Below are positions 8,205 through 12,325 of a DNA stretch of 35,922 nucleotides, in pieces. The position numbers and the translations under genes were made by a program. A model generated the notes under the pieces. The model searched no databases, was not told the origin of the DNA, and worked only from the letters and a program-made list of their open reading frames with translations. The first letter of the stretch is position 1, and each line of letters opens with the position of its first letter. This DNA comes from Synergistota bacterium. GTDB lineage: Bacteria > Synergistota > GBS-1. The DNA lies in the NCBI GenBank assembly GCA_021159885.1, contig JAGHDO010000079.1:1-35922 (forward strand), in the 5' to 3' direction.

Positions 8205-8633
8205 ATGGGTATATTGGAGAAAGTCCTCGTTTTCATGGGACTGGCTGACGAAGGAGAAACGGTGGAGGAAGCTCCTAAGGCAAAGCTTCCTGCTTGGGAA
8301 GAAAGAGAAAAGCGAGTTTCTCAGAGCTCAGCGGGCGCGAGAAAGATCGTTCGAATTTGGACGCTTCAAAAGGGGAGCGAAGCTAAGGATGTGGCTCAGG
8401 CCTTAAAAAGGGGATGGCTCATTATTATGGATCTTTCTTTGCTTGATCAGGAAGACGTTAAGCATGTGTTAAATTTTACCTACGGTGTTATATTTGCCAT
8501 GCAGGGGACTTTGAAAACACTGGCGGATAGGGTTTTTCTTCTTGCGCCACCGGGGTTTGAGGTGTTTGAGCATCCGTTTCCAGGAGGAGGTGTGAAGGTT
8601 GGCGAGACTGACTCCTCTGGACATACAGAATAA
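8205..8633 (+). CDS. sepF: Cell division protein SepF
   Basis: A 142-residue protein. It starts MGILEKVLVFMGL, an amphipathic membrane-targeting helix. A charged linker to about residue 47 follows, and then the SepF core (KIVRIWTLQKG through VFLLAPPGFEVF, about 47-125). SepF tethers FtsZ filaments to the membrane and aligns them into bundles. The ATG lies 3 bases after yggS, with TTGAGGG upstream. Its last 35 bases overlap divIVA, and they carry that gene's AGGAGGAGGTG ribosome site. SepF is typical of Firmicutes, Actinobacteria and Cyanobacteria and is less expected next to LPS genes. Confidence 0.9.
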   Translation: MGILEKVLVFMGLADEGETVEEAPKAKLPAWEEREKRVSQSSAGARKIVRIWTLQKGSEAKDVAQALKRGWLIIMDLSLLDQEDVKHVLNFTYGVIFAMQGTLKTLADRVFLLAPPGFEVFEHPFPGGGVKVGETDSSGHTE

Positions 8634-9162
8634 AGAGTTTAGTAGATCCTTTAGAGGCTATAACGAAGAGGAGGTAGATGAGTTCTTAGATAGAATTGTT
8701 GAGGACTATGGAGCGCTTTTCCGTGAGAATGCGGAGCTTAAGGATAAGATAAGGGAACTTGAGGAAAAGATAAACGAATATAAGAAAATGGAGTCTTCAC
8801 TTCAGGAAGCACTCCTTTTGGCTCAGAAGACTGCGGAGGAGAAGCGTCTTAATGCTGAGAGGGAGGCAGAAATCATCCTAAAAGAGGCAAGAATAGAGGC
8901 GCAGAAGATAGTCGATGGCGCTCTTGTTAGAGTTCAGGAGGTTGAGAGAAGGATAGAAGATCTTGAAAAGGAGCGTGAGAGATTTATTCTTGAGATGAAG
9001 GCGCTTCTTTCTACGTTCTGGAATCTGCTTGAGAAAGAACTTAGAAAGGGGAGGGAGATCGTTGATACTGAGGGTCAGAGTTCAGCCCGGGGCGAGGAAA
9101 GACGAGATAGTGGGCTTTCGGCAGGGGGTTCTCTGGATCAGGATCAGCGCGCCTCCGATTAG
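8599..9162 (+). CDS. divIVA: DivIVA-domain coiled-coil protein
   Basis: A 187-residue protein. The N-terminal lipid-binding DivIVA domain reads LTPLDIQNKEFSRSFRGYNEEEVDEF (about residues 4-29, quoted only to mark its extent by the F, R and Y positions). A long coiled coil follows, about 35-155. DivIVA proteins sense negative curvature and recruit division or polar growth factors. The start is TTG at 8599 with AGGAGGAGGTG 6 bases upstream. The last 33 or so residues are low-complexity (Gly, Ser, Asp, Arg) and are read from DNA that also encodes the next gene in another frame, so this tail is probably not conserved. Confidence 0.88.
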   Translation: MARLTPLDIQNKEFSRSFRGYNEEEVDEFLDRIVEDYGALFRENAELKDKIRELEEKINEYKKMESSLQEALLLAQKTAEEKRLNAEREAEIILKEARIEAQKIVDGALVRVQEVERRIEDLEKERERFILEMKALLSTFWNLLEKELRKGREIVDTEGQSSARGEERRDSGLSAGGSLDQDQRASD

Positions 9163-9319
9163 GGGAAAGGCGAATGCGAGGCTGATCGAGATTTTAGCTG
9201 ATAAGCTTTCGATTCCTAAAAAGGGCATAAGGCTTCTTAGGGGAGAAAGATCTAAGGATAAGCTTCTTGAGATAGAGGGATTGGCAGAGGATGAAGTTTT
9301 TAGAGCTCTTGGATCGTGA
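9062..9319 (+). CDS. yggU: DUF167 (YggU) family small protein
   Basis: An 85-residue protein of unknown function with the whole DUF167 fold. RVRVQPGARKDE near 4-15 opens the domain, and SAPPIRGKAN near 29-38 is its most conserved signature. I chose the TTG at 9062 because GGGGAGG (9048-9054) is well spaced and the domain begins there; a longer frame back to 9029 adds nothing recognisable. The gene overlaps divIVA by 101 bases and recG by 29. DUF167 genes often follow the ylm/divIVA cluster, which fits here. Confidence 0.85.
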   Translation: MILRVRVQPGARKDEIVGFRQGVLWIRISAPPIRGKANARLIEILADKLSIPKKGIRLLRGERSKDKLLEIEGLAEDEVFRALGS

Positions 9320-11360
9320 GGTGAGGTATCTTAAGGGAGTGGGTCCCAAAAGGGCTCAAGACTTTGAAAAGCTTGGCGTTAAGAAGGTTGAGGACCTTCT
9401 TTTTTTATTGCCTCGTAGATATGAGGATAGAAGAGAAATAAGATCGCTGGGTGATCTCATCTTTGGTGAGGAGAATCTCATTAAGGGCAAAGTTCTTGGA
9501 ATAGAGGATATATCGTCTCGGAAAGGAATTCGCATTATAAAGGCTTTAATTTCAGATGGGGGGCGAAGAAGGGCGTATGCGGTCTGGTTTAATAAGCTTT
9601 ATATTAAAAAGCTTCTTTTAAAGGGAAAGGAATATCTCTTTTACGGAAAAGTTATCCAAAGATATGGTGAGATACAGATTCAGGACCCAGAGATTGAACC
9701 CTTCGAGGATGTAGCGGAGATGAACGCTGGTAGAATCTTGCCCGTTTATCCCCTTGCAGGAAGACTTTCTCAAAGAATAGTTCGCTCTGCTGTTGAAGGA
9801 GCTCTTGAGCTCGTTTCTCCTGAGGTTGTTGATTTTCTTCCTGAGTTTATTAGAAAGGAAAACTCACTGATGGAACTTTCTATCGCTTTTAGAGAACTTC
9901 ATTTCCCATCGGATTCCTCTTCCGCTATTGAAGCACGCAGGAGGTTGGCTTTCGATGAGCTCTTTCTACTCCAGCTTTCTCTGGCTTTAAGAGCACGTGA
10001 GAGAAAAAGTGAGTCAGCACCAGTTTTGAGAGTAAGAGGGCATCTTTTAAGAGAGTTTTGGAAAAGATTATCGTTTACGCTTACGCGGGATCAAGCAAGA
10101 GCTTGGAGAGAGATAAGGGATGATCTCTCAAGCGGCAAGCCAATGAACAGACTTCTGCAGGGGGATGTAGGTTCTGGTAAAACCGTTATAGCGATTGCAT
10201 CCATGCTTCTTGCTGTCGAAAATGGCTATCAATCGGCGCTTATGGTTCCCACGGAGGTCCTTGCGGAGCAGCATTTCTGCGTTCTTGATCAATACTTAAC
10301 GCCTCTTGGGGTTAAAATTGGTCTTCTAACTGGCAGTCTTAGGGAAAGGGTTAAAAGGAGAGTAATAAATGAGCTTGCTTCGGGAGAAATAAAGGTGGTT
10401 GTTGGTACTCATGCTCTTATACAGGAAAGAGTTGAATTTAAGGATCTTGCTCTCGTAGTGATAGATGAACAACATAGGTTTGGTGTTCTGCAGAAAGCGG
10501 CGCTTCTTAAGAAAAGTATTTCTCCTCATGTTCTCGTTATGACTGCCACTCCGATACCGAGAACGCTCAGTCTGACCCTTTATGGTGATCTTGATGTCTC
10601 GCTTATAAGGGAACTTCCTCCGGGAAGAAAGCCCGTTATGACTTATTGGATTAGTGAGAGAAAAAGGGATAAGGTTTATGAGTTTGTGAAAAAGAGAGTT
10701 AGGGAGGGAGAGCAGGCTTATATCATATGTCCACTTGTTGAAGAATCGGAAGCTCTTGAGGCAGAGTCTGCAGTTAAACTTTATGAAGAGCTTAAAGGAA
10801 GAGTTTTTAGAGAGGAACGGCTTGGCTTAATTCACGGAAGAATGAAGATGGAGGAAAAGGAAAGAGTTATGAAAAGCTTTAAACATGGAGAAATTCAGAT
10901 ACTTGTTGCTACACCGGTTATAGAAGTTGGCATAGATGTTCCCAATGCTACCGTTATGGTTATAGAGAGTGCAGATAGATTCGGACTGTCTCAAATACAT
11001 CAGCTTAGAGGGAGAGTTGGAAGGGGGAGCAAGCAATCCTATTGTGTCCTTATAGCGAACCCTAAGACTGAGGAGGCTCGAAAGCGGCTTTCGATAATCG
11101 TCTCTACAACAGATGGATTTAAGATTGCTGAGGAGGATTTAAAACTTAGAGGTCCGGGTGAGCTTTGCGGAATCAGACAACATGGAATTACCGATTTTAA
11201 GGTGGCAGATATACTAAGGGATTTCGATCTACTTGCACTGGCGAGAAAAGAAGCTTTTCACCTTGTCAACGCTTCAAAAGCTCTCAGGGAGTATTCTCTC
11301 CTTAAGGTCTTTGTAAAAAGGAAATTCGCGGAAGCAGGTGAGCTCCTTAATGTCAGTTAG
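9291..11360 (+). CDS. recG: ATP-dependent DNA helicase RecG
   Basis: A 689-residue superfamily 2 helicase that remodels stalled replication forks and Holliday junctions. An N-terminal wedge/OB domain (RYLKGVGPKRAQDF near 12-25, LPRRYEDRR near 40) precedes Walker A GDVGSGKT (about 291-298), a DEQH box (about 391-394), the ATPIPRTL motif and the C-terminal QLRGRVGRG motif VI. The length matches E. coli RecG (693). The ATG at 9291 lies inside the end of the DUF167 gene; the GAGG next to it is too close, but AGAGGGA at 9274-9280 can serve. A GTG at 9321 is a possible alternative start. Confidence 0.95.
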   Translation: MKFLELLDREVRYLKGVGPKRAQDFEKLGVKKVEDLLFLLPRRYEDRREIRSLGDLIFGEENLIKGKVLGIEDISSRKGIRIIKALISDGGRRRAYAVWFNKLYIKKLLLKGKEYLFYGKVIQRYGEIQIQDPEIEPFEDVAEMNAGRILPVYPLAGRLSQRIVRSAVEGALELVSPEVVDFLPEFIRKENSLMELSIAFRELHFPSDSSSAIEARRRLAFDELFLLQLSLALRARERKSESAPVLRVRGHLLREFWKRLSFTLTRDQARAWREIRDDLSSGKPMNRLLQGDVGSGKTVIAIASMLLAVENGYQSALMVPTEVLAEQHFCVLDQYLTPLGVKIGLLTGSLRERVKRRVINELASGEIKVVVGTHALIQERVEFKDLALVVIDEQHRFGVLQKAALLKKSISPHVLVMTATPIPRTLSLTLYGDLDVSLIRELPPGRKPVMTYWISERKRDKVYEFVKKRVREGEQAYIICPLVEESEALEAESAVKLYEELKGRVFREERLGLIHGRMKMEEKERVMKSFKHGEIQILVATPVIEVGIDVPNATVMVIESADRFGLSQIHQLRGRVGRGSKQSYCVLIANPKTEEARKRLSIIVSTTDGFKIAEEDLKLRGPGELCGIRQHGITDFKVADILRDFDLLALARKEAFHLVNASKALREYSLLKVFVKRKFAEAGELLNVS

Positions 11361-11827: not shown

Positions 11828-12325
11828 ATGAAGGCAGCGGTTTATCCTGGTAGCTTCGATCCGGTCACATATGGCCATCTCGATATAATTGAGAGAGCCT
11901 CAAGGATTTTCGATAAGCTCATAGTGGCAGTGGTTTCAAATCCCGCGAAAACGCCGCTATTTTCCATAGAAGAAAGGATGGAGATGATAAAGGAATCGGT
12001 TGAGCATCTCAATAACGTTGAGGTTGATGGTTTTGAGGGGCTTCTGGTTAATTACCTTAGAAAGAGGGGAACGAAAATAGTCATAAGGGGAATGAGGGCT
12101 GTAACTGACTTCGACTATGAGTTTCAAATGGCGTTGACGAATAGGAAGCTCGACAAAGACGTTGAGATAATATTTCTCCTTTCGGATTCCAAATATCTTT
12201 ACCTTACCTCAAGGATGGTAAAGGAAATAGCGGGTCTCGGCGGATGTATTAAGGGAATGGTTCCACCTCACGTTGCGGAGAGACTCTTTAGGAAGCTTAA
12301 GGTTTCCTCATCCGGATCTGCTTGA
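11828..12325 (+). CDS. coaD: Phosphopantetheine adenylyltransferase
   Basis: A 165-residue enzyme that transfers AMP from ATP to 4'-phosphopantetheine, the penultimate step of coenzyme A synthesis. AVYPGSFDPVTYGH at 4-17 contains the TxGH nucleotide motif, and YLTSRMVKE is the C-terminal ISSTxVKE-type motif. The ATG at 11828 follows AAGGAGGG by 7 bases. A longer frame from 11786 would run back into rsmD with no similarity. The last 58 bases overlap the 3' end of tmcAL on the opposite strand, so the two mRNAs are complementary there. Confidence 0.95.
   Translation: MKAAVYPGSFDPVTYGHLDIIERASRIFDKLIVAVVSNPAKTPLFSIEERMEMIKESVEHLNNVEVDGFEGLLVNYLRKRGTKIVIRGMRAVTDFDYEFQMALTNRKLDKDVEIIFLLSDSKYLYLTSRMVKEIAGLGGCIKGMVPPHVAERLFRKLKVSSSGSA

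Follow-up and report, generated by a model that had tools for sequence, protein, structure and literature searches.

Among co-directional gene overlaps longer than 60 bp, none was regarded as real in a 2008 survey of 338 genomes, where the 715 cases yielded no real one and the longest real overlap measured 56 bp (PMC2478687, in its passages on co-directional pairs). Long overlaps in phase 1 have been explained by extension of the upstream gene at its 3' end without selection, according to the corresponding part of PMC3887535. Here, an overlap of this kind was analyzed in a Synergistota bacterium (GenBank assembly GCA_021159885.1, contig JAGHDO010000079.1, positions 1 to 35,922 of the forward strand; this whole stretch of 35,922 nucleotides (nt) is referred to as the window), in which divIVA runs into the gene of a DUF167 (YggU family) protein. 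The pair resembles the 3'-extension overlaps outlined in PMC2542354 in that both genes lie on the same strand in phase 1, the upstream gene appears to have lost its stop and the next stop is located inside the neighbor. Both the length and the conservation of the overlap exceed what was accepted as real in the relevant part of the 2008 survey.

The divIVA-DUF167 overlap and its conservation

divIVA and the DUF167 gene were found to have 101 nt in common (9062-9162), read in different frames and in phase 1, as an earlier note on this DNA had claimed. Within the overlap, the third codon positions of DUF167 are the first positions of DivIVA. Both reading frames gave profile matches well above the curated cut-offs: DivIVA matched PF05103 over residues 4-130 (154.7 bits against 28, E 1.7e-45), and DUF167 matched PF02594 over positions 3-76 of 76 (78.3 bits against 30.9, E 4.7e-22). 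Since the latter match begins at residue 2 of DUF167 (profile position 3), the start of the gene is not located much further downstream; moving it there would cost the conserved VQPGARKDE core, so that a wrongly predicted start is unlikely to explain the overlap. The ribosome site proposed within divIVA is likely the purine-rich GGAGGGAG located 5' of the DUF167 start, and a purine-rich stretch was present at the equivalent place in two relatives, G001 and G003.

The last 33 residues of DivIVA (155-187) are encoded by the shared DNA, in agreement with the previous estimate, and consist of S6, D5, G5, R4, E3, Q3, A3, L2, V1 and T1. In an AlphaFold2 model, which was built from a two-sequence alignment only, a helix extended up to residue 162 and the predicted local distance difference test score (pLDDT) was below 50 at residues 161-178 and 180-184. 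A polar and disordered C-terminus is thereby predicted for the tail derived from the overlap.

The comparison was carried out in a family set comprising the source genome (G000) and G001, G002 and G003, which together represent three genera. In all four genomes divIVA extends beyond the start of DUF167, each time in phase 1, and the overlap thus goes back at least to the common ancestor of the family. The position of the stop slides, giving DivIVA proteins of 187 (G000), 179 (G003), 177 (G002) and 167 (G001) amino acids (aa). When judged by orthologues of equal gene length, as in the part of PMC2478687 that sets this criterion, the overlap and its phase were kept in the three genomes with an intact DUF167, and the length varied from 101 nt in G000 to 80 nt in G003 and 44 nt in G001, the last value assuming that DUF167 starts at the CTG found in G001 where the other genomes have the TTG.

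The stops that end DivIVA lie in the -1 frame of DUF167, where their placement depends largely on the third positions of DUF167. Because such a stop is made up of the final T of one DUF167 codon and the AA, AG or GA with which the following codon begins, mainly synonymous changes of DUF167 shift the end of DivIVA. Thus, GAC (G000) versus GAT (G001) before GAG decides whether DivIVA runs on or ends at 167 aa.

In G002 (locus L075, the interval from divIVA to recG), DUF167 was reduced to a remnant with an early stop and approximately 48 nt missing, and no PF02594 match was found in this genome, which was put at 99% complete. The DivIVA tail of G002 remains open and is close to that of G003. The changes altering DUF167 and silent for DivIVA were frequent both between G002 and G003 (0.49 vs 0.12, P 0.01) and between G002 and G000 (0.44 vs 0.16, P 0.04). 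Since the tail stayed open after the decay of DUF167, its persistence is not merely a by-product of DUF167 conservation; it is possible that the tail has persisted by chance since the break.

PF02594 was present in 3 of the 61 genomes of the phylum, namely G000, G001 and G003, and was not found in the remaining 58 (57 outside the family and G002); PF05103 was present in 60 of the 61. Matches were obtained in 55 outside genomes, and 26 outside divIVA loci were examined, i.e. the 30 listed loci minus the four of the family. DUF167 was located behind divIVA in none of these 26 loci, and a recG start overlapping the TGA of divIVA by 4 nt was available in 17 of them. Beyond position 140, DivIVA comprised 12-27 residues in 21 of the 26 outside loci and 48 (G000), 40 (G003), 38 (G002) and 28 (G001) residues in the family. 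By the criterion for a 3' extension, it was the DivIVA of G000 that was longer than most outside orthologues, and DUF167 matched its profile nearly end to end. No relative combining a non-overlapping layout with an identical tail was seen among the 26 loci, the tails of which differ. The suggestion that a gene end had run into its neighbor and created new protein sequence by overprinting was supported, DUF167 being the partner that is conserved widely and the tail of DivIVA the new reading.

In 2 of 7 DUF167 loci from elsewhere DUF167 is preceded by divIVA, the two genes overlapping by 1 nt in L005 and being separated by a gap in L009. Therefore, DUF167 may be ancestral and subsequently lost in the rest of the phylum, equally with an insertion between divIVA and recG. 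Where the divIVA stop and the recG start share bases, as in the 4-nt arrangement, a gene placed between the two would readily remove the stop of divIVA.

Two further observations concerned divIVA. Its start is overlapped by the end of sepF (8599-8633, 35 nt, phase 1; 35, 44 and 44 nt in G001, G002 and G003), so divIVA is overlapped at both ends. A 30-bp stretch within the gene (8734-8763) has a second occurrence at 97% on a different contig (L002, minus strand).

Possible selection on the tail and alternative explanations

It was proposed that the family ancestor had, or acquired, a DUF167 gene between divIVA and recG, and that the original stop of divIVA was lost at this junction. DivIVA would then have been translated onward through DUF167, in its -1 frame, until the first stop was reached, so that the 5' end of DUF167 would have become the template for a new disordered tail, with DUF167 being initiated separately, at its own ribosome site within divIVA. 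We infer that this old, family-wide 3' extension was followed by mild retention of the new tail by selection in three of the four genomes, an explanation that was considered fairly probable.

The codon positions in the overlap were compared with a first null of windows from 14 neighboring genes, of which 12 occur in all four genomes, and with a wider null that drew on 62, 74 and 95 genes for the individual pairs. The third-position identity of G000 and G003 in the overlap was 0.77 compared with a null mean of 0.43, a value reached by 104 of 15353 null windows, by 9 of 5701 windows matched for protein identity and by 0 of 523 windows with the -1 frame open in both genomes. The -1-frame protein identity of this pair was reached by 167 of 15353 windows. 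In the pairs with G001, where DivIVA ends early, third-position identity was at the null level, and the contrast between the long-tailed pairs and the G001 pairs was reached by 5 of 3045 windows. Further, the classes of changes were compared with the first null only, using every fifth window. The density of changes silent for DUF167 and altering DivIVA was 0.29 for G000-G003 (null 0.76; 0 of 595 windows as low), and 0.54 and 0.47 for the other two long-tailed pairs (null 0.77 and 0.70; P 0.12 and 0.10). For G003-G001, the changes altering DUF167 and silent for DivIVA gave P 0.02 over the first 13 codons and 0.18 over 26. Comparison of the two frames, which the earlier note had recommended, gave a possible signal of dual-frame purifying selection that was strong for G000-G003, weaker for the G002 pairs and absent for the G001 pairs. 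A patch of recombination seemed an unlikely cause of the high third-position identity of G000 and G003, the DUF167 protein identity of this pair in that region (0.69) being lower than that of G000-G001 (0.81).

Several points weighed against retention of the tail by selection. For G000-G003, the third-position value was reached by 0 of 3015 windows of the first null but by 104 of 15353 windows of the wider one, which makes the result weaker. The other long-tailed pairs were weaker, with a third-position identity of 0.65 both for G000-G002 (760 of 18173 windows) and for G003-G002 (3180 of 27455), and their -1-frame protein identities were reached by 3506 of 18173 and 2337 of 27455 windows, respectively; even for G000-G003, 6 of the 523 both-open windows reached the -1-frame value. 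DUF167-silent changes were not scarce in the pairs with G001. The sample comprised four genomes only, with the strong signal confined to the single pair G000-G003, and the one-sided P values carry no correction for the six pairs and the several measures compared, with overlapping windows. Moreover, G001 manages with a 167-aa DivIVA that has 28 residues from position 140 onwards and barely exceeds the outside ones, and 5 of the 26 outside DivIVA proteins carry unrelated tails of 41 or more residues; hence, a long tail is neither needed nor specific to the family. Taken together, the comparisons provide modest evidence that the DivIVA tail is kept by selection in the long-tailed genomes.

The same loss of the stop might instead have left a functionless tail that is tolerated, with its openness due to the composition of DUF167 and chance. 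The free sliding of the DivIVA stops, the near loss of the tail in G001 and its predicted disorder agree with such a neutral passenger. When the codons of the DUF167 protein were redrawn synonymously (20000 draws per genome), -1 frames as long as observed occurred in 15% of the draws for G001 and 5.7% for G003, which is compatible with chance, and in 1.2% for G000. Runs taken from all codon positions of the neighboring genes gave a weaker result of 21, 9.7 and 4.5%, respectively. However, a 23-codon -1 frame open jointly in G000, G002 and G003 was rare (7 of 3045 neighboring-gene windows), the third positions of G000 and G003 were unusually alike, and the frame of G002 was still open after the decay of DUF167. 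The frame thus appears to be open longer than expected, to a modest degree, and a purely neutral tail was regarded as rather unlikely; with respect to function, we lean towards weak retention.

Another proposal would place selection on the overlap rather than on the tail: ribosomes crossing the DUF167 start would keep the start site unfolded, and an early divIVA stop would be disfavored. Such an effect could account for the recurrence of long phase-1 overlaps with unrelated tails in the same family, namely 80-107 nt at yidC-jag and 68 nt at DUF502-DUF881. In the yidC-jag case, all four family genomes had an open -1 frame, which occurred in 0 of 3009 null windows, and the third positions were not clearly kept, their value being reached by 285 of 3009 windows. 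However, the tail of G002 persists despite a broken DUF167, and an elongating ribosome would occlude the start as well, making this explanation improbable.

An indel introduced by sequencing or assembly, or the very recent loss of the stop in G000 alone, both of which had been raised for this locus, would fit the classing of all 715 co-directional overlaps longer than 60 bp as probable errors or unconserved (PMC2478687, in the same part), but is hardly credible because the phase in which divIVA extends beyond the start of DUF167 is shared by four genomes of three genera.

Other long overlaps and gene layout

The yidC-jag overlap, also in phase 1, was 80 nt in G000, 92 nt in G001 and 107 nt in both G002 and G003, and the nearest candidate starts left gaps in 7 of 7 outside genomes. 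Synonymous redraws were as open in 2.6, 5.4, 0.7 and 1.0% of cases. The DUF502-DUF881 overlap was 68 nt in the same phase in all four family genomes, when counted in G001 from an ATG one codon before the match, and its tails were unrelated to those of the other pairs; this comparison covered the family genomes alone.

Across 509.6 kb of G000, 2 of 60 ortholog-supported tandem pairs within 60 nt overlapped by at least 60 nt and 36 of 60 overlapped at all, when open reading frames (ORFs) had to reach 80 aa and the nearest start was used. With the ORF minimum lowered to 60 aa, the overlap counts were 7/121 (G000), 4/95 (G003), 4/133 (G002) and 7/115 (G001). The latter include doubtful starts, e.g. 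LpxC-FabZ, as well as divIVA-DUF167 at 134 nt, and the choice of start matters. The conclusions on long overlaps were therefore based on the three individually inspected pairs divIVA-DUF167, yidC-jag and DUF502-DUF881. It is suggested, tentatively, that the family may keep several overprinted gene ends of 68-107 nt in phase 1 with disordered tails under selection, and that G002 may represent a captured step in the birth of new protein sequence by overprinting. Elsewhere in the window, the ends of coaD and a convergent gene of a HIGH nucleotidyl transferase (PF05636) share 58 nt (12268-12325).

Table 1. Location of the genes and sites discussed (positions refer to the window unless a locus is given)
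Feature	Position	Strand	Details
sepF	8205..8633	+	PF04472, E 4.4e-15
divIVA	8599..9162	+	TTG start; TAG stop at 9160-9162; 187 codons/aa; orthologues in G001-G003
GGAGGGAG, likely ribosome site of DUF167 within divIVA	9050..9057	+	direct reading
Shared 101-nt stretch	9062..9162	+	DivIVA residues 155-187 and DUF167 N-terminus
DUF167 (YggU family) gene	9062..9319	+	TTG start; 85 aa; intact in two relatives (G001, G003), broken in G002
recG	9291..11360	+	PF17191 and helicase domains; ATG 29 nt inside DUF167
yidC-jag	L127:14181-15465 (G000:C24)		relatives L185, L186, L187
DUF502-DUF881	L156:1401-3039		L212-L215

Comparison with described systems

No paper was found on DUF167 together with divIVA, on overlapping genes of Synergistota or on overlapping reading frames of yidC-jag. 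Examples of 68-107 nt that have orthologues in several genera would demonstrate that long overlaps can be real and lasting, and gene finders that penalize long overlaps would miscut such genes. G002, where the older frame is dead and the newer one is kept, offers a natural test of which frame is seen by selection.

With respect to gene order, the closest loci were L005 (Thermodesulfobacteriota) and L009 (Desulfovibrionaceae), in which DUF167 directly follows divIVA as in the family. They differ in having a 1-nt overlap or a gap, and their DivIVA proteins of 149 and 167 aa lack a tail derived from DUF167. The holD-rimI pair of Enterobacteria, as presented in the corresponding part of PMC2478687, is alike in being a co-directional overlap conserved across genera with a genus-specific gene length; the family overlaps reported here measured 44-101 nt for divIVA-DUF167 and 80-107 nt for yidC-jag. 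In comparison with the 3'-extension overlaps, divIVA-DUF167 at 101 nt exceeds the 59-nt limit given for the empirical set in PMC3887535, within the part concerned. The mechanism, a 3' extension into the neighboring gene, is a known one, and it is the length, the conservation across genera and the recurrence in one family that are unusual.
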